A DNA stretch of 41,031 nt, from the NCBI GenBank assembly GCA_001794605.1, contig MGKD01000023.1, positions 1-41,031 on the forward strand. Reading direction: 5' to 3'. How positions within the stretch are numbered: the first letter of the stretch is position 1; each line of letters starts with the position of its first letter. The notes below the pieces were generated by a model. It saw nothing but the letters and a program-made list of their open reading frames with translations. It was not told where the DNA came from and ran no database searches. A program made the translations under genes and the position numbers. This stretch comes from Candidatus Yanofskybacteria bacterium RIFCSPHIGHO2_12_FULL_45_19b. Its GTDB lineage: Bacteria; Patescibacteriota; Minisyncoccia; 2-02-FULL-40-12; IGHO2-12-FULL-4. Below, piece after piece: positions 4,247 through 33,836 of this stretch.

Positions 4247-7200
4247 TTAGTGTTCAATTAATTCAACACTCAAGCCCAAGCCTTTAATTTCAGAAAGTAA
4301 AACTTTGAAAGATTCTGGTAAGTGTGGCGCCTTAATCTCTTCACCGTTAACAATCGATTCGTAGGTTTTAGCACGACCCAAAACATCGTCGGATTTAATA
4401 GTTAGCATTTCCTGTAAAGTATGCGCGGCGCCATAACCTTCTAGGGCCCACACTTCCATTTCTCCAAAACGCTGACCACCAAACTGGGCTTTACCGCCTA
4501 ACGGCTGTTGAGTAATCAACGAGTACGGACCGACCGAGCGCATATGTAGCTTGTCTTCCACCATGTGACTTAGTTTCAGGAAGTAAATCATGCCAACAGT
4601 AGAAGGATGGCTAAATGGCAAGCCCGTTTTTCCATCATACAATTGCGCCTTACCATTCTCGGGTAGACCGGCCTTTTTCAGCTCATCGCGAATCGCCTGC
4701 TCAGTTGGACCAGCCATGGCTGGTACGGCCGCCTTGTAGCCCAAGATTTGTGCCGCCCAACCTAAGTGCGTCTCCAGCACCTGACCGATGTTCATACGCG
4801 AGATAATACCGAGCGGACTGAGCACGATATCGACTTGGCGACCATCGGCCAAGAAAGGCATTTCTTCGTCTGGCAAGATGGTGGAGATGACACCCTTGTT
4901 ACCATGACGACCAGCTAGTTTGTCTCCCACCTGAATCTTGCGCAGTTGAGCAACAGAAACCTGGATAGTCTTAATGACGCCGGCCTGTAGCTTATCGCCC
5001 TGATCACGCGAGAATACCTTAATACCAACCACGCGACCCTGTTTACCATAATCCAAGCGCAGTGAGCTATCTTTTACATCGCGAGATTTTTCGCCAAAGA
5101 TGGCGCGCAGTAAACGCTCTTCGGAAGTTAGATCGCTCTCGCCTTTGGGAGAAATCTTACCAACCAAAATATCCTGCGAACGCACCTCCGCACCGATACG
5201 CACCACCCCATCGGGATCAAGATCTTTTAGACGCTCCTCACCAACATTTGGAATATCGTAGGTAGTTAATTCTGGACCCAGCTTGGTCTCACGTACATCA
5301 ACTGAGTATTCTTCGATATAAACCGAGGAGAGTACGTCCTGTTTGACCATTCGATCAGACAAAACAATCGCGTCTTCAAAATTTAAACCTTCAAAGGACA
5401 GGAAGGCCACCAATAGGTTGGTGCCTAACGCCAACTCACCACCATCGGTGGCCGGACCATCAGCAATAATCTGGTGCTTCTTTACTTTATCGCCTTTATT
5501 CACCAACGGTCGCTGACTAATACTGGTGAAAGCATTGGATTTAAGAAACTTAATTAATTGATAATCATGTTTCTTACCATCATCACCTTTGATACTAATA
5601 TGCGCGGCATCAACGCTTTCTACCACCCCATCCGCTTCAGCCACTACTACCAAACCAGAGTCACGCGCGACGGTTTCTTCTAAACCAGTACCAACATAAG
5701 GCGCCTGCGGATTAACTAGCGGTTGGGCCTGGCGTTGCATATTCGAACCCATCAAAGCACGGTTGGCATCATCATGTTCCAAGAAAGGAATCAATGAGGT
5801 GGCTGCCGAAAAAGGCTGTTTCGGTGAAACATCAATAAAGTCTAACTCTTCCGGAGAAACCAAACCGGGCTCACCCTGAATACGCGCCGCTACTCGTTCA
5901 TCTAAAATTTTACCGTCCGCTGAAATTTTCACACCAGCTGGCGCAACAATAAAACGTTCTTCTTCACTAGCGTCGAGATAAACAATTTCACTAGTGGTTT
6001 TTCCCTTAACCACTTTGCGATAAGGCGTGAGAATAAAACCTAATGGAGAAATCTTGGCATAAAGTGCCAAGTGGCCGACTAGACCAATATTTTGCCCCTC
6101 CGGAGTTTCAATCGGGCAGATCCGGCCATAGTGCGAAGGATGTACGTCACGCACGTCAAAACTGGCGCGCTCCTTGGTTAAACCGCCGGGACCAAGCGCA
6201 GACAAGAGTCGCTTGTGTTCTAACTCGGACAGGGGATTAAACTGGTCCATGAATTGAGAGAGTTGGCCAGAGGAAAAGAATTCTTTCAAGCGCGCCACAA
6301 ATGGACGCGGGTTAATTAACTGCGAAGGTAGGACTGTATCGGTATCCAGCGTACTCATGCGGTCTTTGATAATACGCTCAGTCTGCGCAAAGGCGACACG
6401 CATCTTATCTTGTAGCAGCTCACCCAAAACCTTAACGCGACGATTACCAAGATGGTCAATATTATCAGGACGAGCAGAGGGGTTGTTATTTAAACGGATA
6501 ATTTCGCGAACGGTATTAATTACATCCTCCGGTTTGAGGGTACGCTCAGTTTCGGTTAGCTCATAGTTAGTAGCAAAACGCTGGTTGAGACGATGACGGC
6601 CAACGCGCGACAAGTCATAGCGAGCGAAGTTGAAGAACATGTTATGAATCATTTGGCGAGAGTTTTCCGCGGTGGCCAAATCACCCGGACGAATACGACG
6701 ATAGACCTCGGCCAAGCCCTCACTCTCGGAAGCGGCTGGATCCTGAGCCATGGTGGCCATGACAAATTTCATCTGATCGTCGGTATCAACATCTGACAAA
6801 ACTTTTTTCAGTTGCTCGTCAGTACCAATGCCGAAGGCGCGCAATAGCGTGGTGACCGGCAGTTTGCGCTTACGATCAATGCGCGCACTAATGGTGCCAT
6901 TTGACTCGGTTTCAAACTCTAACCAAGCACCGCGGGAAGGAATCAACTTGGCACCAAAAAGATTTTTCGCACCGGCCAGGCGCGAATAACTGAAGAAAAT
7001 ACCTGGACTGCGAATCAGCTGTGAGATAACTACCCGCTCCACGCCATTGATAATAAAAGTCCCGCGTGGGGTCATAAGCGGGAAATCTCCCAAATACAAT
7101 TCTTGGTTAGTGACCTGACCAGTGCGCTTATTGCGCAGTTCTATTTTGATGCGTAAAGGCGCCTCGTAGGTAACATTTTTTTCACGCGCAGTGCGCTCGT

Positions 7201-10300: not shown

Positions 10301-11080
10301 CACATATTCTTATATCACTATAAGTGTAGACTATATCTTTCTCCTCCCGCCTTGGCGGGATAGGAGATCGGCATATTATAACTAGTCTTTGACATTATCG
10401 CCTCACTAGCCATCTCTCCCTTGGATAAATCCTTAGGATCAGTCGTTACGGGGTCAAACCTAAAATTGTTTCAAGTTCTGATTTAGACTTCTTGTTCTTG
10501 GTCGCATAGTTTTCTGATTGAATGGTCAAGATGTAATTAATGATTCTTTCAAGCCTAGCTCTGTTTAATTCTGAAATTTTATTTTCCACCAGCAGTGCCG
10601 TAGCCTTGCTAAGCGCTAGCGCCTGATGTTTTTTGAATTTTACATAAGGCATAATATTTTTCAGAATTTCGTTCACCGGCTTAAACCCATTAATTCGCAA
10701 TTCGGTCATACCGTCATTGCGTCTTGCTATATAACCAATGCCAAGCTTTTTTCTAATCCAAAATAGTGGTGTTTCATGGCGACTATCTTGATAAAAACAG
10801 ATAGTGCTCATAAACCGCCAGCCTAGCCTACTATCACCACGCTTCTTGATTTGCAACATTAAACTACCGTCTCCATCAAGAAAGCCTGCAATATAAGCTA
10901 GATCAATTTTAGATTGACTTCCCACGGTATTGTCTTAATAATTTCTGGTCCTCAAGTAATTGTACCACAGCTATCGGACCGATAGTAATTGTGGTTATCA
11001 ACGGATACAGATTTATTAAGATTCCACCGTTATTAGCCGAATTGTCATCACAGATTACTCCGTGAAGTAGCAATTATTTT
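10301..11080 (-). other. Group I intron in 23S at L2656 (sarcin-ricin loop)
   Basis: Exons join to CUCUAGU|ACGAGAGGACC; group I P7 strands AAAGACUA / GAUAUAGUC; intron ends in G; contains a LAGLIDADG ORF. Confidence 0.88.
10446..10925 (-). CDS. LAGLIDADG homing endonuclease, in L2656 intron
   Basis: 159 aa with IAGFLDGDGS motif. Confidence 0.9.
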   Translation of the reverse strand: MGSQSKIDLAYIAGFLDGDGSLMLQIKKRGDSRLGWRFMSTICFYQDSRHETPLFWIRKKLGIGYIARRNDGMTELRINGFKPVNEILKNIMPYVKFKKHQALALSKATALLVENKISELNRARLERIINYILTIQSENYATKNKKSKSELETILGLTP

Positions 11081-11142: not shown

Positions 11143-11882
11143 CAAAATATATTTCTTGGAAATTATTTCGGACTATACCTTATTCCATTTTTAGATGGAA
11201 TCCAACGTCTTATCCCGCTTAGCGGGATCCGTCAGTTTAAAACTGACAAGTCTCTACGGGGTTAGTGTACGAAACTTTCTTTTCTTTGAGTAATTAAGTT
11301 CTCGAAATGAATCAACCAACTTAAGCATCGCCGCAAAATCTTCTTCTTTTTCGATTTTGTTTTTTTGCTCAAGAATTTGTTTCATGAGAGCAATCTGTTT
11401 TCTTTTCAAAATAACAAATGGCTCAACCATTGATATAAATTCCAGGATGCTATCAATTTTATTAATAGTATATTCTAGAATTCCATCTTTTCGAGTTCTG
11501 ATGTAGCCCAAATTAATAAGTGAACAAATTTCTTCAAATTTAGAACGATCTTTAGCTGACTGAAATAGAATAATAGATGGTGCAACCTGAAACCCGTAGC
11601 GATAACCATCATTTGGCTTCGCACGTACATACACGCTACCATCTCCATCTAAAAATCCAGCTAAATAGGCTCTTTTAATTGCAGAAAGTTTATTCTTCAT
11701 ACACAACTTCCCTCGGTATTATCCTAACATATGACAGGTTAAGTTCAATGTTAGATATCCACCGATATGAGTTGGTTTTTCAATCTCGATTACTCGGGAA
11801 AGCCGCCGCTATTGTGTTATTTATCGGGTTCAGACGGTTCTATCCATGATTCATGATACCTACTTCATGATTCACATTCAGA
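11143..11882 (-). other. Group I intron in 23S at L2593
   Basis: Exons join to UUCAGACCGU|CGCAAGACAGG; P7 strands GUAGAGACUU / GGUAUAGUCC; intron segment ACCGUCUGAACCC pairs with the 5' exon GGGUUCAGACCGU at 12 of 13 positions. Confidence 0.9.
11254..11706 (-). CDS. LAGLIDADG homing endonuclease, in L2593 intron
   Basis: 150 aa with LAGFLDGDGS motif. Confidence 0.92.
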   Translation of the reverse strand: MCMKNKLSAIKRAYLAGFLDGDGSVYVRAKPNDGYRYGFQVAPSIILFQSAKDRSKFEEICSLINLGYIRTRKDGILEYTINKIDSILEFISMVEPFVILKRKQIALMKQILEQKNKIEKEEDFAAMLKLVDSFRELNYSKKRKFRTLTP

Positions 11883-12641
11883 ACGGTCTGAACCCAGCTC
11901 GCGTACCCTTTTAATTGGCGAACAGCCAAACCCTTGGGGCCTTCTTCAGTCCCAGGATAGGGCGAGCCGACATCGAGGTGCCGAACTGTGCCGTCGCTAT
12001 GGACGCTCGGGCACAACCAGCCTGTTATCCCCGGGGTAGCTTTTATTCGTTGAGCTTCCGCGTTCCTACGAACCACGGTCGGATCACTAAGTCCTGCTTT
12101 CGCATCTGCGCGACATGTCCGTCTTGCAGTTAAGCCAGCTTGTGCCTTTGCGCTATCGCTCTGATGTCCATCCAGAGCTAGCTGACCTTAATGAACGCCT
12201 CCGTTACTTTTTGGGAGGCTGCAGCCCCAGCAAAACTGCCCACCAGCCACTGTCCCAACCCAGCCCTCTAGGTGTGCGACGTTTTGCGGGAAAAAATTTC
12301 GAATAAAACAAACTATCCACCGAACGAAACTTTATCTTCCCGCGTTTAGTCATGCAACTAAAGGGCGGGGCCGGTTAGAATTACAAATTTTACAGATGAG
12401 TGTTTCATTGGCGTCTCCACCACAACCGAAATCATGGCTTCAAAGACTACTCACTACGCTACGCAGTAAAACTCGTAACCCAATAACAAGCTACAGTGAA
12501 GCTCCCGGGGTCTTTCCGTCTTGGTGCGGGTAGTCGGCATCTTTACCGACATTGCATTTTCACCAGGCTATTGGCTGAGACAGTCCCCCAGTCGTTACGC
12601 TATTCATGCGCGTGGGAACTTACCCCACAAGGTATTTCGCT

Positions 12642-13327
12642 TGACATGTTACAACAACGTGTTGTGGTATTCTTACCCTCTATGTCGCCATAGAGACCGG
12701 ACTATATCTTCTCGCTTCGGTTTATCATTCCGAATGAGTTCGACGTATAGTCTCTGAGGATTCTAAGACTTTATACTTTCTTCGATTCATCGTCTGAAGC
12801 AAAGATCGTACCTCATTCAATCCCTTCTCTGAACGATGTTTTCCCAAAATCATCATTTTGATAATTCTTCGAAAAACCAGAAAATCTTTTTGCTTATAGG
12901 TTTTCAGTTTATTTTTCTCAAAGAACGGAATAATTTTCAGATTAAGATCATCGATAGCTCTGACGCAATATTTTAACATTTGTTCATGATGATTATCTCG
13001 ACGAGTATTGAGATTTATGTAGCCACATTTGAAGAATTTCTCAATTCTTTTTAATGCGCCACGACTCCTTTCGCCTTGACTCACCACGAACTCTGGAAAT
13101 ACCTGCCAGCTTTCTCTTGTGGTTACTGTGCGATTACGAATTATACTTACAGTAAAGCACCCTTCACCATCGACAAAACCACTGATCCAACCTTCTAGTC
13201 TTAGTCTTTCCTGCTGATTGTCTGCACGAGAAGTATTTTCACTCATGGTATCATTATACCATGAGTAACCCTCGATTCTCAGAGTTTCCAGCATATAGTC
13301 GAATTTTATAAAAGCAGTTAATTACCT
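12642..13327 (-). other. Group I intron in 23S at L1931
   Basis: 5' exon UAAAAGU pairs with intron GCUUUUA (U.G at splice site); P7 strands AGAGACUAUA / GAUAUAGUCC; LAGLIDADG ORF. Confidence 0.9.
12725..13294 (-). CDS. LAGLIDADG homing endonuclease, in L1931 intron (start probably at MSENTSRADNQQ)
   Basis: ISGFVDGEGCFTVSI motif. Confidence 0.9.
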   Translation of the reverse strand: MLETLRIEGYSWYNDTMSENTSRADNQQERLRLEGWISGFVDGEGCFTVSIIRNRTVTTRESWQVFPEFVVSQGERSRGALKRIEKFFKCGYINLNTRRDNHHEQMLKYCVRAIDDLNLKIIPFFEKNKLKTYKQKDFLVFRRIIKMMILGKHRSEKGLNEVRSLLQTMNRRKYKVLESSETIRRTHSE

Positions 13328-13341
13328 ACTTTTAGACAGTT

Positions 13342-13639
13342 CATCCTTTTTATTAGTCTCGATGGATTCGATTAACTCACCATCGGACAGCCTCATGGTC
13401 GCCCATGAGATCGGACCATATCTTTCCGCCAACATCTTACGAAGTTTTGGCGGATCTGACGTATGGCCTCTGAGGACTCTCTGGTTTCCCAGGTTGCCTG
13501 CTGATTGTCCGTTGGTCGTCCGAAGCTCATCAGAGCGAAGGGGACCGCACCGAGCACATTTTCACCACTTCTGGTAGTGTCGGATTCAATCGGAGTTTCC
13601 AGCAAATAGTCAGATTTTATAACTACAACTGTCATGTTT
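13342..13639 (-). other. ORF-less group I intron in 23S at L1917
   Basis: 5' exon UAACUAU pairs with intron GUAGUUA (U.G at splice site); P7 strands AGAGGCCAUA / GAUAUGGUCC; shares GCTGGAAACTC segment with the L1931 intron. Confidence 0.87.
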
Positions 13640-13814
13640 ATAGTTACTGCCGTCGTTCACTGGCGCTTCAGGCCTCCGCAGTTCATCCGAAGACAAACCA
13701 CTTCAACCATTAACGTTCCAGCACTGGACAAGCGTCACCCTGTATACATCAGCTTTCGCTTTAGCACAGAGTTGTGTTTTTGATAAACAGTCGCCAGGGG
13801 TCGTTAGCTGCGGC

Positions 13815-13929
13815 CGTCCCAATGCCGACGTTGCCTTCGTGTTGAACTCCGCGCGTTGAGCATGTCCCATTCGGGACTTTGCCAAAGGCGCGGCATGTCA
13901 AAGACAAATGCAATGTCGGCACAGGGACG
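13815..13929. repeat. TIR element copy A (subfamily 1) within 23S
   Basis: cgtcccaatgccgacgttgcc...gcaatgtcggcacagggacg; interior nearly identical to copies D and E. Confidence 0.93.
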
Positions 13930-14476
13930 GCAGGCCTTATCCCGAAGTTACGGCCACTTTTTTGCCGAGTTCCTTAGCCAATAATCACCTGTTCGCCTTA
14001 GTACTATCATACTAGTCTACCTGTGTCGGTTTTAGTACGTTTTCGCTTAGACGCTGTAGAAGCTTTTCTAGGAAGACTCTTCAGTTGAATACCCCCATCC
14101 GAAGACAGAAGTTTAGTCGCCAATGAGTAGTGCCATTGAAGGCAGCGACCGGATTTGCCTGATCGCTATTCTAGCTGGTAGCTACATAAATCCAATAATA
14201 TGCTCAACTTTATTTTCTCCGTCACTCCATGATAAATCTAAACGAAGGGCCGGAATATTAACCGGCTGTCCATCGGCTTCCCCAGCTCGTAAGCTGGGTT
14301 ATCCTTAGGCGCGCCTAACCCTCCACTGATTGCCATCGCGGAGGAAACCTTAGACTTTCGGCGGCAGCGGTTTTCACGCTGCTTGCGGTTACTCATGCCT
14401 GCATTCTCCCTTCCTAACGCTCCATCCCAAGCCTCACGGCGGAACTTCGCTGCGTTAGAAATGCTCCCCTACCACG

Positions 14477-14600
14477 CGCCCCAGTGCCGAAATTGTCTTC
14501 TTGCCGGCCTTTGACCTGACTCCTCCCGCTGCCGAAATTGTAAAATCGGCAAGGGGGACGGGCTCAACGCTCGGCAAAACACAACTTCGGTACTGGGACG
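14477..14600. repeat. TIR element copy B (subfamily 2) within 23S
   Basis: cgccccagtgccgaaattgtcttcttgccggcc...acaacttcggtactgggacg; inner ctgccgaaattgtaaaatcggca hairpin. Confidence 0.92.
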
Positions 14601-15134
14601 CATTCACGATTTCGGTGGTTAACTTAGCCCCGGTAAATTTTCGGCGCATTCGGCCTTCCTCATCCGAAGACGAGGATTGAACAGTGAGCTGTTACGCACT
14701 CTTTAAAGGATGGCTGCTTCTAAGCCAACCTCCTGTCTGTCTAAGGCAGAATACTTCCTTTAACACTTAGCTAACACTTAGGGACCTTAATCTGTGATCT
14801 GGGCTCTTTCCCTCACGACGATGAAGCTTTGCCCCCACCGTCTCACTACCATCCTTATCATCGAGGTATTCGGAGTTTATTTGGTAGGTCTACCGTAAAA
14901 CGGCAAGACGAACCAATTAGTGCTCTACCCCCTCGACTAACAGATGGCGCTGCCCCTAAAGGCATTTCGGGGAGAACCAGCTATTACCAAGCTCGATAAG
15001 CTTTTCACTTCGAACCACAGTTCATCCGATGATATTGCGCTATCAAACAGTTCGGACCTCCAGTCGCCTTTCGGCGACCTTCATCCTGACCATGGTTAGC
15101 TCGCTTGGCTTCGGGTCTTATACCAGATACTCAC

Positions 15135-15271
15135 CGTCCCAGTGCCGAACGCCCCGCTCCCGAAATTGCCCTTATCTTTTGATAGCAAGTCCCCACTAGT
15201 CTTTGGGACCTTGGGACTTAATGTCAAAAGACCGGTTCAATCTCGGCATTGGGACGCTCGGTACTGGGACG
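15135..15271. repeat. TIR element copy C within 23S, apparently nested
   Basis: cgtcccagtgccgaacg[ccccgctcccgaaattgccc...aatctcggcattgggacg]ctcggtactgggacg: a second pair of ends inside the first. Confidence 0.85.
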
Positions 15272-15377
15272 ATATGCGCGCTATTAACACTCGGTTTCCC
15301 TACGCCTGCGTCCTGACGGACTTAGGCTTGCAACTGGTATAAACTCGCAGGCTCATTCTTCAATAGGCACACCGTCA

Positions 15378-15492
15378 CGTCCCAACTCCGACATTGCCTT
15401 CGTGTTGAACTCCGCGCGTTGAGCATGTCCCGTTTGGGACTTTGCCAAAGGCGCGGTATGTCAAAGACAAGTGCAATGTCGGTATTGGGACG
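15378..15492. repeat. TIR element copy D (subfamily 1) within 23S
   Basis: 115 bp, appears identical to copy E. Confidence 0.95.
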
Positions 15493-15764
15493 CTCCGGCT
15501 CTTTGTAGGCATATGGTTTCAGTTACTATTTCACTCCCCTAACCGGGGTGCTTTTCACCTTTCCCTCGCGGTACTAGTTCACTATCGATCACTAAAAGTA
15601 TTTAGCCTTGGACCGTAGTAGGCCCGGATTCGCCACGGATAATCTCCTCCATGGGTACTTAGGTAACAATACAAGAGTTCACTGACTTTCGCCTACGGGA
15701 CTATTACCCGCTGTGGTCTGCCTTTCCAGGCGTGTTCGGCTAGCTAGTGAATTTGTAACTCTTC

Positions 15765-15879
15765 CGTCCCAACTCCGACATTGCCTTCGTGTTGAACTCC
15801 GCGCGTTGAGCATGTCCCGTTTGGGACTTTGCCAAAGGCGCGGTATGTCAAAGACAAGTGCAATGTCGGTATTGGGACG
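15765..15879. repeat. TIR element copy E (subfamily 1) within 23S
   Basis: 115 bp, appears identical to copy D. Confidence 0.95.
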
Positions 15880-15896
15880 ATGTACTATCCCTGCAA

Positions 15897-15994
15897 CCCC
15901 CCTCGACTCGGCGCTAAGCGCCTCGCTCGGGGCAAGCCAACTTTTTTAGATATTGGCTCGCCCTGAGTGAGACACGCAGTGTCGAATCGAAGGG
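15897..15994. repeat. Two different palindromes inserted side by side in a 23S variable hairpin
   Basis: cccctcgactcggcgctaagcgcctcgctcgggg and ccctgagtgagacacgcagtgtcgaatcgaaggg, bridged by gcaagccaac..gttggctcgcc-type pairing. Confidence 0.75.
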
Positions 15995-16003
15995 TTTAGG
16001 CTA

Positions 16004-16035
<32 letters not shown>

Positions 16036-16091
16036 TATGCTATTTATTTTCCTCTGGGTACTGAGATGTTTCACTTCCCCAGGTACGCCAC

Positions 16092-16215
16092 CGTCCCAGT
16101 GCCGAAATTGTCTTCTTGCCGGCCTTTGGCCTGGCTCCTCCCACTGCCGAAATTGTAAAATCGGCAAAGGGGACAGGCTCAACGCTCGGCAAAACACAAA
16201 CTCGGCACTGGAACG
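16092..16215. repeat. TIR element copy F (subfamily 2) within 23S
   Basis: cgtcccagtgccgaaattgtcttcttgccggcctttggcc...acaaactcggcactggaacg; strongly similar to copy B. Confidence 0.93.
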
Positions 16216-16671
16216 GTCAATTTGGTTTTCACCAAATTGGGTTTCCCCATTCGGACACCTCCGGATCAAAGCCCGCTAGACGGCTCCCCGAAGTTTATCG
16301 CAGTCACGCCACGTCCTTCATCGCCTTTTAGTGTCAAGGCATCCTCCATACGCCCTTCATTCCTTACAAGATTAAATGGCTCAGCCGCATGCTAAGCATC
16401 TAATCACTAACAAGATCTTACTTAATGCAATTTTTTACCCGCTATCCTTGTTGATACTTGGATAACATTTAACCAGTTTTCAAATTGCAGTCGGCTTAGC
16501 TACCAGTGGCTGGCTCCGGAAGAACCAATCACCGCTAGCCAAATTTCTGAAAAAAGCACTGAAAAAACCGCTTCCTCAGCGGCTCCAAAATTACAGAGAA
16601 AACAAGGAGGGTTTAGCCGCTTTGGATGTTATTGGATTGATGGGTTGTTTGCATAGATAACTGTGTTTATG

Positions 16672-16732: not shown

Positions 16733-16778
16733 GATAACAAAACTGGGTCCCGCCGCGGCGGGACCCAGTTTTGTTATC
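16733..16778 (-). terminator. 46-bp perfect inverted repeat downstream of the MscS-like gene
   Basis: gataacaaaactgggtcccgccgcggcgggacccagttttgttatc. Confidence 0.85.
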
Positions 16779-17613: not shown

Positions 17614-17764
17614 CGTCCTGGTGCCGAAGTTGCACTTGCCTTTGGCACGCCGGGACAAGTTCCAGAAGGGATGGATTTCAACAAAAGGAAAAATATCAGG
17701 CACTGGGACGCTCAACGTCGGCAGGAGTAGATTCAACATGCGGTTCAACTTCGGCACTGGGGCG
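17614..17764. repeat. TIR element copy G plus an adjoining partial copy, overlapping the rmuC 3' end
   Basis: cgtcctggtgccgaagttgc...aaaatatcaggcactgggacg followed by ctcaacgtcggcagg...ttcaacttcggcactggggcg. Confidence 0.85.
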
Positions 17765-18802
17765 CTCGGCAACGGGAAGATGAATGACCTTATCTACTCG
17801 ATCGAGCATCAGATCCAAGCGCTTCTCCGAATCATCAAATGAACCCTTGGCATCTGACAAGTGTTTACCCAAACGCGCAAAGCCTTCGCCCAGTTTTTGT
17901 CCATCAATACTAACCCGCTCCAACTTCTTCAAAATTTCCTGCGTGCGTTGTGAAACCTCCATATCTTTAAACCAGTGCATAATCGCCGATAATGTTAAGA
18001 ATAGAGTATTAGGCGAAACGATGAAAACTTTCTTGCCACGAGCATAACTCGCCAAATCTAAATCTTTGTAATCCTTAGCCGTCGAGATTATTTCGTAATA
18101 AATCGCTTCCGCCGGGATAAACATCAAGGCTAAATTAACCGTACCTTCGGCCGGCAAAATATATTTACTAGCGATATCGTCAATCTCCCGTTTTACGTCG
18201 GTGGCAAAAGCTTTACGATAAGCATCCCGCTTAATTTCATCCTGCTCCCCCATTAAACGCTCAAAATTTTCGAGGGGAAACTTGGAGTCAATTGGCAGTA
18301 GAAAATTATTTGGCAAGCGCAATACCGCATCCACAGCCTCACCGCTTTTAAAATAATGTTGTAAGGTGTAACGCTCTTTCGGAAAATACTGACTGAGCGA
18401 AGCATCTAAAGAGGTCTCGCCCCAACGCCCGCGTAATTTTGGCGCTTTAAAAATCTCTTGGAAGCTGGCGACACTGCTGACCTTCTGTTGCACCTGGGAA
18501 ATATTTTCCCGTAAGCTGGTTAGCCCAGCGGTAAAACTTTCCACCTGCTTGTGCACATTTTCGCTTGCCTGACGCGTACTTTCACGGCTCTCTTTTAGCT
18601 GTTCTGAAACCAGGCCAATAGTTTCACGTAAGGCGCGGTTAGTTTCGCCAGAAATCGTATCCAGCCGTTGGTTTAGTGACGCTAAACTGGCAACTACCGG
18701 ATCAGCGGTTTGGTCTTTTTTTTTACTCTTGGCGCGGTATTGAATAGTGATAATTACCAGTGCAATTACCACTACCGCCCCCAATAGAATCTGGTAAAAC
18801 AT
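17696..18802 (-). CDS. rmuC: RmuC-family DNA recombination protein
   Basis: Coiled coil then LRGRWGETSLDASLSQYFPKERY, LPIDSKFPLENFERL, VFIVSPNTLFLTLSAI; start set at MFYQILL. Confidence 0.92.
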   Translation of the reverse strand: MFYQILLGAVVVIALVIITIQYRAKSKKKDQTADPVVASLASLNQRLDTISGETNRALRETIGLVSEQLKESRESTRQASENVHKQVESFTAGLTSLRENISQVQQKVSSVASFQEIFKAPKLRGRWGETSLDASLSQYFPKERYTLQHYFKSGEAVDAVLRLPNNFLLPIDSKFPLENFERLMGEQDEIKRDAYRKAFATDVKREIDDIASKYILPAEGTVNLALMFIPAEAIYYEIISTAKDYKDLDLASYARGKKVFIVSPNTLFLTLSAIMHWFKDMEVSQRTQEILKKLERVSIDGQKLGEGFARLGKHLSDAKGSFDDSEKRLDLMLDRVDKVIHLPVAERPSAEVEPHVESTPADVERPSA

Positions 18803-18990
18803 GTCTGGATTATAACACCTTGAAAAAGTTTGGCTAGACAAGAATTAGCGGCGCCGAGAGTGGCGCCGCTAATAACGAGACCCGAAGAACCCGTCGTCCA
18901 AAAAAAACATTTTTCGAAATCATCGTGGTCTCCTTCCGATCTATAAAACTCTAGTATTCTTTCTATCTAATGAACAGATATTCACGTTTG

Positions 18991-19755: not shown

Positions 19756-19969
19756 GCCTACATTAAAATTACGGCGTGGCAAAGCTCGACAAAAATAAAG
19801 CGTCTTAACGCTTTATTTTTTTACCATATTTTTAGACAATTGGGAAAGCTAAAGCTGAGAATAAAGATAACCTCTTTACTGCCGACATTGCTACTGCCGA
19901 GCTTGCGCACTAAGTAAGGCGTATCACCGGAAGACTGGGATAGAAGGTGCGGGGAATAAAGTAATCAAT

Positions 19970-20081
19970 CATAATGCCGATATTGCAAGCCGTAGTTGAT
20001 CCAACCTCGGTAGTCTGATAACCAAAAGACTGTGACGAGGGGATAGATTTCAACCAAAGGGACAATGTCGGCACTGGGACG
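19970..20081. repeat. TIR element copy H (left end degenerate) abutting the LOG-family stop codon
   Basis: ataatgccgatattgc...gggatagatttcaaccaaagggacaatgtcggcactgggacg. Confidence 0.8.
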
Positions 20082-26146: not shown

Positions 26147-27184
26147 TCATTCAAGTAGCTCCGCTACTCTTTCCACATGCTTCAGCAACATCGCACAATA
26201 GCCCCACTCATTATCGTACCAGCTAAATACCTTGATCAAATCCCCGCCCACCACCTTGGTTAGGGCCAGATCAACAATCGAGCCATGTGGATTACCCAGA
26301 ATATCACTCGAGACCAATGGTTCATCGGTGGTCATTAAAATTCCCTGCCACTCCGGTTGCGCCGCCGCCATGCGAAAAAGCTGATTAACCTCTTCAACAC
26401 TAGTGGATCGTTCGGAGACAAAAGTAAAATCAATTAGTGAACCGGAAATTACTGGCACCCGAATGGCCAAGCCATCAAATTTATTTAAAAGTTCCGGAAT
26501 CGAGCGGGTAGTCGCCTGCGCCGCTCCGGTAGTCGAGGGCACAATGTTTACTGCTGCCGCGCGGGCCCGGCGAAAATCATCTTTACGATCGGGGCCATCA
26601 ACCAACCCCTGAGTTGCGGTATAACCATGCACAGTAGTGAGTACGGCCTTTTTTATACCAAGATTTTTTAACATTATTACTACCACTGGGTTGGTAGCAT
26701 TGGTAGTACAAGAGGCATTGGAAGTAATCGCCCCAGTGCCGATATTATCTTTTGTTGAATCCATCCCTCCCGACATTGCACCAATCCCTGGTGTTATCAC
26801 TGGTGTTATATCATCCTTCGGTGGCGCCGTAATCACCACCCGCTTTGCTCCGGCCTTAATATGTCCTCTTGCCTTATCACTCGAATCAAACACCCCAGTT
26901 GCCTCCACCACAATATCGACTGACAATTGCTTCCAAGGTAAATCAGCCAGTTCCTTAAATCCAAAAACTGGAATAGTTTGACCATCTACTACTAGCGCGT
27001 CCTTTTTGGCCACTACCGTTCGGCCGTACTCTCGGTAAACCGAATCGTGTTTCAATAAATAAGCGAGATTTTCGGCGCTACCAAGATCGTTAACCGCCAC
27101 GATTTCTAAATCCGGCCGACCAAAAGCCTGACGAAAAAATATTCGCCCAATTCGGCCGAAGCCATTGATAGCAATTCTGGTCAT
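26147..27184 (-). CDS. gap: Glyceraldehyde-3-phosphate dehydrogenase
   Basis: MTRIAINGFGRIGR, SNASCTTN, SWYDNEWGY. Confidence 0.97.
   Translation of the reverse strand: MTRIAINGFGRIGRIFFRQAFGRPDLEIVAVNDLGSAENLAYLLKHDSVYREYGRTVVAKKDALVVDGQTIPVFGFKELADLPWKQLSVDIVVEATGVFDSSDKARGHIKAGAKRVVITAPPKDDITPVITPGIGAMSGGMDSTKDNIGTGAITSNASCTTNATNPVVVIMLKNLGIKKAVLTTVHGYTATQGLVDGPDRKDDFRRARAAAVNIVPSTTGAAQATTRSIPELLNKFDGLAIRVPVISGSLIDFTFVSERSTSVEEVNQLFRMAAAQPEWQGILMTTDEPLVSSDILGNPHGSIVDLALTKVVGGDLIKVFSWYDNEWGYCAMLLKHVERVAELLE
26729..26790. repeat. TIR element fragment copy I, in frame inside gap
   Basis: cgccccagtgccgatattatcttttgttgaatccatccctcccgacattgcacca matches the complement of copy G/H interior and TIR. 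Confidence 0.75.
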
Positions 27185-30666: not shown

Positions 30667-31119
30667 GTCCTCTAGAAACTTAGAGTTGACGTTCCCATCG
30701 TACCTGCGGATTTCCCGCATACGACGAGCTCCTGGTGTATAAACACCGAGAGTGAATCCTTCTCTCAAGACTGCTTGAGATACTATGATTCAGCTGACTT
30801 CTGACGCGGCGTCAATTCCATTATACCATTTCTATCACCTAAGCTATAGGTAATATTACGCCAGATATCCCCGAGGTCAGTTAAAATTCTTTTCCAAACA
30901 TCTCTTAAAATCCTGCGCTCGCACCCTGAGTTTTCTCTACGCTCACTGCCAATCATAGATCAACTGGATTTTTACTTTTAAGAGCTGCCTTTTGTTTCCA
31001 ACTCCTTCGACTTAAATCTCACGACCTAAGCCTAGTCTTCAACTACGTCCCATCACGGTCTGATGGGAGGATGGATTTTAACCATCTAGAATATTAACCT
31101 GCCGGGCGCTTTCATTGTG
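30667..31119 (-). other. ORF-less group II-like intron or insertion in 16S near position 1400 (boundaries approximate)
   Basis: ~450 nt interrupting CUUGUACUCAC...GCCCGUC; domain V-like hairpin CGUCGUAUGCGGGAAAUCCGCAGGUACGAUGGG, and UCAGAAGUCAGCUGAAUCAUAGUA typical of the pre-domain V region. Confidence 0.6.
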
Positions 31120-31351
31120 AGTACAAGATCCGGGAACGTATTCACCGCAGCGTTCTGATCTGCGATTACTAGCGATTCCAACTTCAAAGAGGCAAGTTGC
31201 AGCCTCTTATCCGAACTGGGGACAGCTTTGGTGGGATTGGCTCCGGCTCGCGCCTTAGCGACCCATTGTACTGTCCATTGTACCACGTGTGTAGCCCAGG
31301 GCATCAAAGGGCCACGCTGACCTGACGTCGTCCCCGCCTTCCTCCCAGTTC

Positions 31352-31472
31352 ACAACCGACAAAATCGGTAAATCCCAAGCACTAAACAACAAATCACAAA
31401 CAATATTCAATTTTGGAATTTATTTGCTATTTGAGATTTGGATTTTTGAGATTTACCTGCCTTGCAGGTTAG
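31352..31472. repeat. AT-rich insertion in 16S h40 loop
   Basis: Flanked by cccagttc/gaactggg stem; AT-rich body aaatcccaagcactaaacaacaaatcacaaacaatattcaattttggaatttatttgctatttgagattt. Confidence 0.8.
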
Positions 31473-32110
31473 GAACTGGGCAGTCTCGCGTGACATAAGT
31501 AACACGCGACAGGGGTTGCGCTCGTTTCCCAACTTAATGGAACCATTCACATGACGAGCTGACGACGGCCGTGCAGCACCTGTCCAGCCGTCTTGCGAGG
31601 GTCTCGGTTTCCCGAAACTTTCGTCTGGATTTCAAGCCCTGGTGAGGTTCTTCGCTTAGAGTCGAATTAAACCACATGGTCCACCGCTTGTGCGGATCCC
31701 CGTCTATTTCTTTGAGTTTTAAGCTTGCGCTCGTACTTCCCAGGCGGCAGGCTTAACGCGTTAGCTTCGCCACCAGGAGGGTCGATGCTCCTAATAGCTA
31801 GCCTGCATCGTTTAGGGCGTGGACTACAAGGGTATCTAATCCTTTTTGATCCCCACGCTTTCGCGATTGACTGTCAGCGCGGCGCTAGCAAGCTGCTTTC
31901 GCTTTTGGTATTCCGTGCGATATCAACGGATTTCACCCCTACACCGCACGTTCTGCTTGCCTCTCACCCGCTCTAGTAATGCCGTTTCCAATGCGGCCTC
32001 GAGGTTGAGCCTCGAGATTTAACACCGGACTAACATCACCAGCTACTCGCTCTTTACGCCCAGTAATTCCGGATAACGCTTGGGGCCTTCGTATTACCGC
32101 TCCTGCTGGC

Positions 32111-33058
32111 CGGTATTACACAATACTAATGAAGTATGTTTAATTTTGGACTATATCACCATCCTCTTTTAATAAAAAGGATGCCTAGCGTTTTATGGAG
32201 ACTCAAGAGTCTCCATCCGACCAATCAATTGGTCGAGTCTCTGAGGGGTTAATTATAATTTTAGATGTTCGAACGGAGGAATCTTATACTTGAAGCACGG
32301 CAAGAGATATGGTTTTATCGTCTCGATAAATTTATCCCTACCTGCCACTCCAATATACAGCTCCGGATAGCGCACACCGCGACAAAGCGGAGCTTGCACC
32401 GAAGTAATAATCCCAAAATTTTCCTTCAAAACACCTATTAGCAGTCGATTTTCTTCTAAGGTAAAGCTGTTGGTAGATAGCGAATAATTATAGTGGCTTT
32501 TGGGCCGATAATCTAAACTACCATCATCCATATACCAAACCGCCAGACTTAGAGGATGAGTCAATATTTCTTTGATGTCTCTTGGAACAATTTTTTTACC
32601 ATCAGGATAAAAAGATTGTCTAAAGAAACACAGATCTTTGTTGGACGAAGTCATAAATTTCCATTGCTTATTGTCTTTGCGTTGTTTAGGTTCGCTTGGA
32701 CAAAAATTTGATAGATTTTCATACATCCAGAAAACATAATCCCTTTGCTTTTCTGAATGCTTTATCTCAAGATAACAATCATTATATCGATCACGATAGA
32801 GATAGCCATCTCCGAGTAATGTTCCAACTAATATCCGTTTTTGTTCAAAAGAAAGTTTGCTCATTTACTACATAATTATAGCAACTTCCCTGCTGATTTT
32901 CCAGTAATTTTGTTAATAAAATCAACAAAATTTTAATTCAGATTGTCACCCACTGGGGTACTGAATTATTGACTGGGTTTTCCAGCATATAAGCTAAGTT
33001 TTTCCTTATTGCCTTACGGCAATAGGTCGCGCCCCCGCCCGAAGTGGTGGGAGATTTC
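32111..33058 (-). other. Group I intron in 16S at S516
   Basis: Exons join to CUAACUUCGU|GCCAGCAGGAGCGGUAAUAC; P7 strands CAGAGACUC / GAUAUAGUCC; intron ends in G. Confidence 0.88.
32253..32864 (-). CDS. LAGLIDADG homing endonuclease, in S516 intron
   Basis: LVGTLLGDGYLY and LAVWYMDDGSLD motifs. Confidence 0.92.
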   Translation of the reverse strand: MSKLSFEQKRILVGTLLGDGYLYRDRYNDCYLEIKHSEKQRDYVFWMYENLSNFCPSEPKQRKDNKQWKFMTSSNKDLCFFRQSFYPDGKKIVPRDIKEILTHPLSLAVWYMDDGSLDYRPKSHYNYSLSTNSFTLEENRLLIGVLKENFGIITSVQAPLCRGVRYPELYIGVAGRDKFIETIKPYLLPCFKYKIPPFEHLKL

Positions 33059-33273
33059 ACGAAGTTAGGAGCCCCTTATTCACTGGGTACCATCAAAATT
33101 TTTCCCCAATAAAAGCAGTTTACGACCCGAAGGCCTTCTTCCTGCACGCGGCGTCGCTCGATCAGGCTTTCGCCCATTGTCGAATATTCTCGACTGCTGC
33201 CTCCCGTAGGAGTACGAACCGTTTCTCAGTTTCGTCGTTGAGGGTAGTGCTCTCACACCCCCTACCCGTCATA

Positions 33274-33308
<35 letters not shown>

Positions 33309-33731
33309 AGGACCTAGGCTGCTCCAGAAGTGCCTTGCGGCTTTACTCTTGCGAGACCATCGGGAATTAGTCTGCCTTTCGGCAGATTATGCCCGGCTTC
33401 AGGGTACATACCAAGGTGTTACTAACTCGTTCGCCACTAACTTATCTCTTCCGTCGCCTTGATGTAATCGCAACTTCTTCCAAAATAAGTCCGTTCGACT
33501 TGCATGCCTTATCCACGCCGCCAGCGTTCATCCTGAGCTAGAATCAAACTCTCAATAATAGTAAATGAATAAATTCACTTACCTCCGATCTAGTTAACTG
33601 TAACAGATAACAATAACTTTCTTTTCACTTTTAATTTCACCAGTCTGACAAATTTTCAAGTTGCTATTGTCGCTTCGTTTTAGACAAGAACCTAAAAGGC
33701 CCGCCCTCCGGAAAAGACAACCACGATTATC

Positions 33732-33836
33732 CGCCCCAATTCCGAAGTTGCACCGTGCGTTGGGCTCGTCCCTCCCGAAGTTACAATATCGGCAAAGAGA
33801 CAAATTCAACAACAAGACAATTTCGGCACCGGGACG
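33732..33836. repeat. TIR element copy J in 16S leader
   Basis: cgccccaattccgaagttgc...gacaatttcggcaccgggacg with inner ctcccgaagttacaatatcggcaaagagac. Confidence 0.88.

Follow-up and report, generated by a model that had tools for sequence, protein, structure and literature searches.

RmuC and the origin of its C-terminus

The RmuC gene of Candidatus Yanofskybacteria bacterium RIFCSPHIGHO2_12_FULL_45_19b runs at its 3' end into a repeat, which raises the question of whether its last residues and stop codon belong to the protein or to an inserted element and, if the latter, what kind of element can be translated in this way. We address this within a 41,031-nt stretch of contig MGKD01000023.1 (the window) and across the 604-kb draft genome of 32 contigs from which it comes.

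The gene occupies 17696-18841 on the minus strand and was identified by its match to PF02646 (E = 4e-57) and by its relatives, with the native domain stopping at residue 359 of 381. The C-terminus then reads ...VAE followed by RPSAEVEPHVESTPADVERPSA and the stop, these last 22 codons occupying 17764-17699 (minus strand), exactly the tail that the first-pass annotation had quoted and attributed to element ends. These codons and the TGA fall within a 151-bp composite (17614-17764) made up not of two equal copies, but of one complete 97-bp palindromic element (17614-17710, minus strand; E = 9e-15, 68 bits, a score that is partly by construction as this element is one of the 17 copies in the covariance model) preceded by a 54-bp half copy (17711-17764, minus strand). 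By alignment and sequence the half copy reads RPSAEVEPHVESTPADVE in the RmuC frame, and the left end of the complete element reads RPSA then TGA. Each of the two ERPSA motifs in the tail begins on an element end, CGCCCCAGTGCCGAAGTTG at 17764-17746 and CGTCCCAGTGCC at 17710-17699, which bears out their earlier interpretation as translated ends.

Comparison of 30 RmuC proteins from the same order, the host's own included, revealed that homologs without the repeat do not share this tail, with 28 of the 29 other aligned proteins ending differently. The exception, G003 from another genus of the same family, has an element end at the corresponding position, where its C-terminus reads VVAMERPDAEVESSAER before the stop and its terminal MERPDAEVESSAER uses the same frame of the element end as host RmuC; the RmuC of its congener G005 has neither the tail nor an element end. 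Because the tail is shared with none of the 29 others except G003, this comparison indicates that it is element-derived in the host lineage, and either insertion happened twice or an older insertion has since been lost.

The stop codon has a narrower origin. The TGA (17696-17698, minus strand) owes its existence to 2 inserted nt that the family consensus lacks, and in the alignment of 17 copies the end reads CC--GA by consensus and CCTGA in this copy only. Because two extra bases turn CC--GA into CCTGA, the stop is, going by the alignment, an accident of that one copy and not a property of the family. The idea that the element supplies both tail and stop thus holds for this RmuC and not as a family trait, the consensus ends being open.

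A dispersed palindromic family in the host genome

The ends of the family are CGYCCCAGTGCCGADRTTG and its complement, both open in compatible reading frames. Allowing up to 3 mismatches, 44 such ends were found in the genome as opposed to 1 for a reversed-pattern control, and the repeat match in RmuC is therefore not due to chance. The covariance model returned 41 matches with both strands counted, and pattern, pairing and covariance model together gave about 29 element loci. The copies are small (about 80-150 bp), dispersed, and fold as strong full-length hairpins with terminal inverted repeats of 19 bp and more; one 115-bp copy (19967-20081, by covariance model and sequence) begins immediately 3' of a gene's stop codon. 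No clear or consistent target-site duplication was seen in the flanks of the copies, and there were no near-identical empty sites for comparison. A TypA-like match (L122, INKIDRPSADVA) was set aside as probably native sequence.

Copies read through in protein-coding genes

At least 13 of the roughly 29 copies lie in coding genes, and in all of these the gene's frame runs on through the element, in most cases with RPSAEV at the entry and GNxGTGT at the exit; in more general form, the sequence reads in as RPSA(E/D)(V/I), meets no stop and reads out as GN(F/V/I)GTGT. The genes concerned are RmuC, GAPDH, TPI, CysS, GalT and bS6 (named from database matches), FtsK, bL25, PGK and PilD (named from conserved motifs alone), a small ORF carrying two copies, and PDZ, our label for a candidate protein of about 400 aa and not the PDZ domain. 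Among complete copies, the length was a multiple of 3 in 6 of 7 within coding genes versus 2 of 15 elsewhere (p = 0.002).

The clearest in-frame case is TPI, for which relatives read YEPVWAIS-TTPGAEP-DTPEN (in general WAISTxPxAxPDTPEN) and the host protein reads YEPVWAIS-[34 aa, RPAPEIA...GNLGSGT]-FYHSDTPEN, the 34-aa insert being the element. An Azambacterium TPI has RPSADIA at the same point. Within the TPI catalytic loop, the residue at which the element sits is the same in two distant lineages (L128 and G000:C24:17275). In CysS, a gap relative to PDB chains (solved structures) coincides with the element between LWKFS and GRPGWHIE; at 130 bp, this copy has a length that is not divisible by 3, and it seems to have native residues within it. 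The GAPDH gene (26147-27184) holds an in-frame half copy (26729-26767, minus strand) that ends ...DNIGTGA just before ITSNASCTTN. Inserts are C-terminal in RmuC, bL25 and FtsK and N-terminal in bS6, and the sequence so added is hydrophilic and falls in a loop or at a terminus, where the protein presumably tolerates it as a linker.

Further element-derived C-terminal tails, for which the first-pass annotation had suggested a search, were found in bL25 and FtsK of the host genome and in a probable RpoB of a Parcubacterium. Its proposal that the family may spread partly because its end encodes a benign tail and stop was not supported as regards the stop, given that in FtsK and bL25 the stop is reached only after the element or its end. 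What is tolerated is instead read-through in a compatible frame anywhere in the protein, whether N-terminal, internal or C-terminal.

Copies in and beside rRNA genes

The single 23S rRNA gene found (11819-16369) contains six copies, a number far above chance (p = 8e-8), all of which are placed at peripheral helices by E. coli numbering. These are a 115-bp copy at 13815-13929 (between E. coli positions 1704 and 1770), a 124-bp copy at 14477-14600 (between 1156 and 1186, helix 45 region), a doubled-end copy at 15140-15271 with a 107-bp core at 15150-15256 (between 644 and 663), a 115-bp copy at 15378-15492 (between 540 and 553, helix 25 region), a second 115-bp copy identical to it at 15765-15879 (between 276 and 419), and a 124-bp copy at 16092-16215 (between 131 and 177, helix 9 region). 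Helices 9, 25 and 45 are known intervening-sequence sites. A seventh copy, of 105 bp, lies directly upstream of the 16S rRNA gene (33732-33836, by covariance model). Short uncharacterised inserts at intervening-sequence sites have been reported from CPR 23S rRNA, with palindromes not mentioned (PMC11270868).

The 23S gene is 4.5 kb long and holds a group I intron besides the six palindromic copies, with three LAGLIDADG ORFs in or beside it (intron and ORF stretches 13392-13704, 10446-10925, 11254-11706 and 12725-13294); an intron-family search at the element copies gave no match. The 16S gene (31070-33551) is itself split by about 0.8 kb, from 32219 to 33018, with a 203-aa ORF (32253-32864). 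Separately, a perfect 46-bp palindrome with overlapping 26-nt arms (16733-16778) lies between the 23S gene and a mechanosensitive-channel gene and is possibly a terminator.

Distribution across genomes

Across 85,000 species genomes the exact end pattern matched 52 stretches, the majority from Patescibacteria (Nomura-, Yanofsky-, Zambryski-, Taylor-, Sung- and Azambacteria, and WWE3), and the remaining matches were compatible with the approximately 20 chance matches expected from the pattern's information content. Several of these exact-end matches fall in frame in conserved genes, among them GyrB, GlmS and TPI as named by conserved motifs. Judged by these ends, the family occurs across Patescibacteria. 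A phage origin was considered and rejected, as the exact pattern matched no more than 5 viral stretches, all of them lacking a good paired end, and no relatives of PDZ were found in viral contigs. In the literature searched, chiefly freely accessible papers, we found no description of such elements from CPR.

A candidate mobility protein

Element ends cluster around a gene pair in which PDZ is followed by a small IVP-like gene. PDZ matches NF050000, an IS1/IS1595-type zinc domain (32.5 bits against a cut-off of 28), and PF12705, a PD-(D/E)XK nuclease domain (27.1 against 22), and across Patescibacteria it shows no variation in its CxxC...C..C, GHxD, DxK and Q motifs. The linkers of PDZ carry element ends at three different places, and the gene is not cleanly bracketed by a single pair of ends. 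Its AlphaFold model was poor (pLDDT 48) and too weak for structure search, and a profile search of PDB recovered a zinc ribbon only. The small neighbour has weak similarity to 23S IVP (E = 0.018, below the cut-off), and the two genes occur together at every locus where both could be seen.

Among 46 relatives, 5 genomes encode PDZ, and these include the 4 with the most elements. Extending this to 286 genomes of the class, we found PDZ in 23 and ends with at most 1 mismatch in 12, with 9 having both, such that 9 of 12 element genomes have PDZ versus 14 of 274 others (p = 5e-9, ignoring kinship between genomes). The association persisted when the discovery genomes were removed (p = 1.6e-7) and when only copies away from PDZ were counted (p = 3e-5), kinship being ignored in both cases. 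No end within 1 mismatch was present in 14 of the 23 PDZ genomes, and one PDZ-bearing relative (G015) has no covariance-model match. Taken together, we infer that PDZ is the best mobility candidate for the element and may move it. In a WWE3 genome (L131), the gene pair sits between ORFs 2-2926 and 4611-6641, whose junctions look like an intein splicing domain divided in two, PF14890 being matched at 1.7e-9 in the downstream one.

A surface-protein gene adjoining PDZ carries NVGIGT repeats whose codons form a near-invariant 18-mer, AACGTCGGCATCGGGACG, which encodes 30 of 36 NVGIGT occurrences in loci not selected for it versus about 0.1% expected from codon use in such genes. This 18-mer is alike in 16 of 19 bases to the element end, a likeness that may be coincidental or may stem from recent gene conversion or from a recognition sequence common to both. 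The near-invariant 18-nt codon set recurs across different genera (L195 and L131) and suggests constraint at the DNA level. Many matches to the element end at 3 mismatches in relatives (for example G037, G026 and G013) proved to be NVGIGT coding repeats without a covariance-model match and were not counted as elements.

Comparison with known systems and alternative readings

The closest parallel is with the Rickettsia palindromic elements (Ogata 2000, 2002; described in the review PMC10969869), which are likewise palindromic, about 100-150 bp long, present in many dispersed copies and found in frame in unrelated protein-coding genes, where they encode a recurring peptide. The Patescibacteria family differs in its host group, its end sequence and its peptides (RPSAEV, GNxGTGT), lies also inside rRNA genes, and is associated with a candidate nuclease gene. 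Set against those descriptions, our observations suggest that the element works in a similar way and is an apparently unrelated second case. It also resembles MITEs in being small, non-coding alone and dispersed, and in having inverted repeats of at least 19 bp at its termini, whereas no clear target-site duplication was seen in its flanks, no parent DDE transposon was found for it, and it is tolerated in coding frames. Its hairpins at variable 23S helices (six copies) and the IVP-like protein next to PDZ recall 23S intervening sequences, although the family also occurs in protein genes and between genes.

We consider it probable that the RmuC tail stems from the insertion of one member of a palindromic mobile family that extends across Patescibacteria, with translatable ends, tolerance in rRNA and mobility provided by the PDZ module. 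Under such a mechanism, the two-gene module (the zinc-domain/PD-(D/E)XK PDZ and the adjacent IVP-like protein) would act on the ends in trans; an element inserted in a gene would be read through in a compatible frame with its linker-like peptide tolerated, and in rRNA the hairpin would extend a helix and might be clipped like an intervening sequence. Were the element mobilised by a trans-acting module in this way, copies would therefore persist only where the frame or the rRNA structure tolerates them. A bolder version, which we hold only tentatively, is that the module represents a new Patescibacteria transposition system in which a zinc domain and a PD-(D/E)XK nuclease replacing DDE, together with the IVP-like partner, recognise the ends and mobilise protein-compatible palindromes, the recognition sequence perhaps also being present in the NVGIGT repeats.

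Alternatively, a REP-type Y1 transposase (RAYT) or some other IS could move the copies as non-autonomous elements, in which case PDZ would be no more than a bystander within an unstable island of surface-protein genes. The element is palindromic with ends that begin CGTC as in CGTC-tagged REPs (PMC3733652), Y1_Tnp genes are common (4 in the host genome), and PDZ loci adjoin repeat-rich surface protein genes. However, such REPs are hairpins of only 20-40 bp with the tag at one end only, as opposed to an element of about 80-150 bp that has an inverted repeat at each end, and the distribution of the Y1 transposase does not track the element, Y1_Tnp being present in 25 of 46 genomes regardless of it and absent from the element-bearing genome G033. 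The bystander role is further countered by PDZ predicting element-bearing genomes even with distant copies alone, so that we regard this explanation as rather unlikely.

If the copies were short introns, or were spliced out or bypassed in some other way before the mRNA and rRNA are used, this would account for their positions in loops of essential enzymes, including the TPI catalytic loop and a site beside the GAPDH catalytic Cys motif, and the same 23S gene does hold a real group I intron. Yet complete coding copies are mostly a multiple of 3 and lack stops, which spliced elements would not need, the RmuC protein ends within its element, and no intron family matched at the copies. The 23S sites, moreover, are peripheral helices that fit known intervening-sequence sites and not conserved cores (PMC11270868). 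Because frame is preserved in coding copies and the 23S sites lie at the periphery, we reject splicing as the main reading and consider it improbable. That the tail is native protein resembling the repeat by chance, as the variability of RmuC C-termini might allow, is virtually untenable and refuted by two separate end matches within 22 codons, the adjoining complete 97-bp hairpin element (68 bits, with the reservation above) and the absence of the tail from 28 of 29 aligned homologs.

Implications

In-frame protein-coding palindromes have been described mainly from Rickettsia, and the mobile family proposed here adds a second, apparently unrelated case in bacteria with minimal genomes, which suggests that selfish DNA can pass through essential genes by being both translatable and foldable. 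The family provides an explanation for some of the short CPR 23S rRNA inserts that had none, and where CPR proteins have unusual loops or tails, these may be peptides of mobile elements. PDZ, finally, provides a testable candidate enzyme for a type of element that has lacked one.
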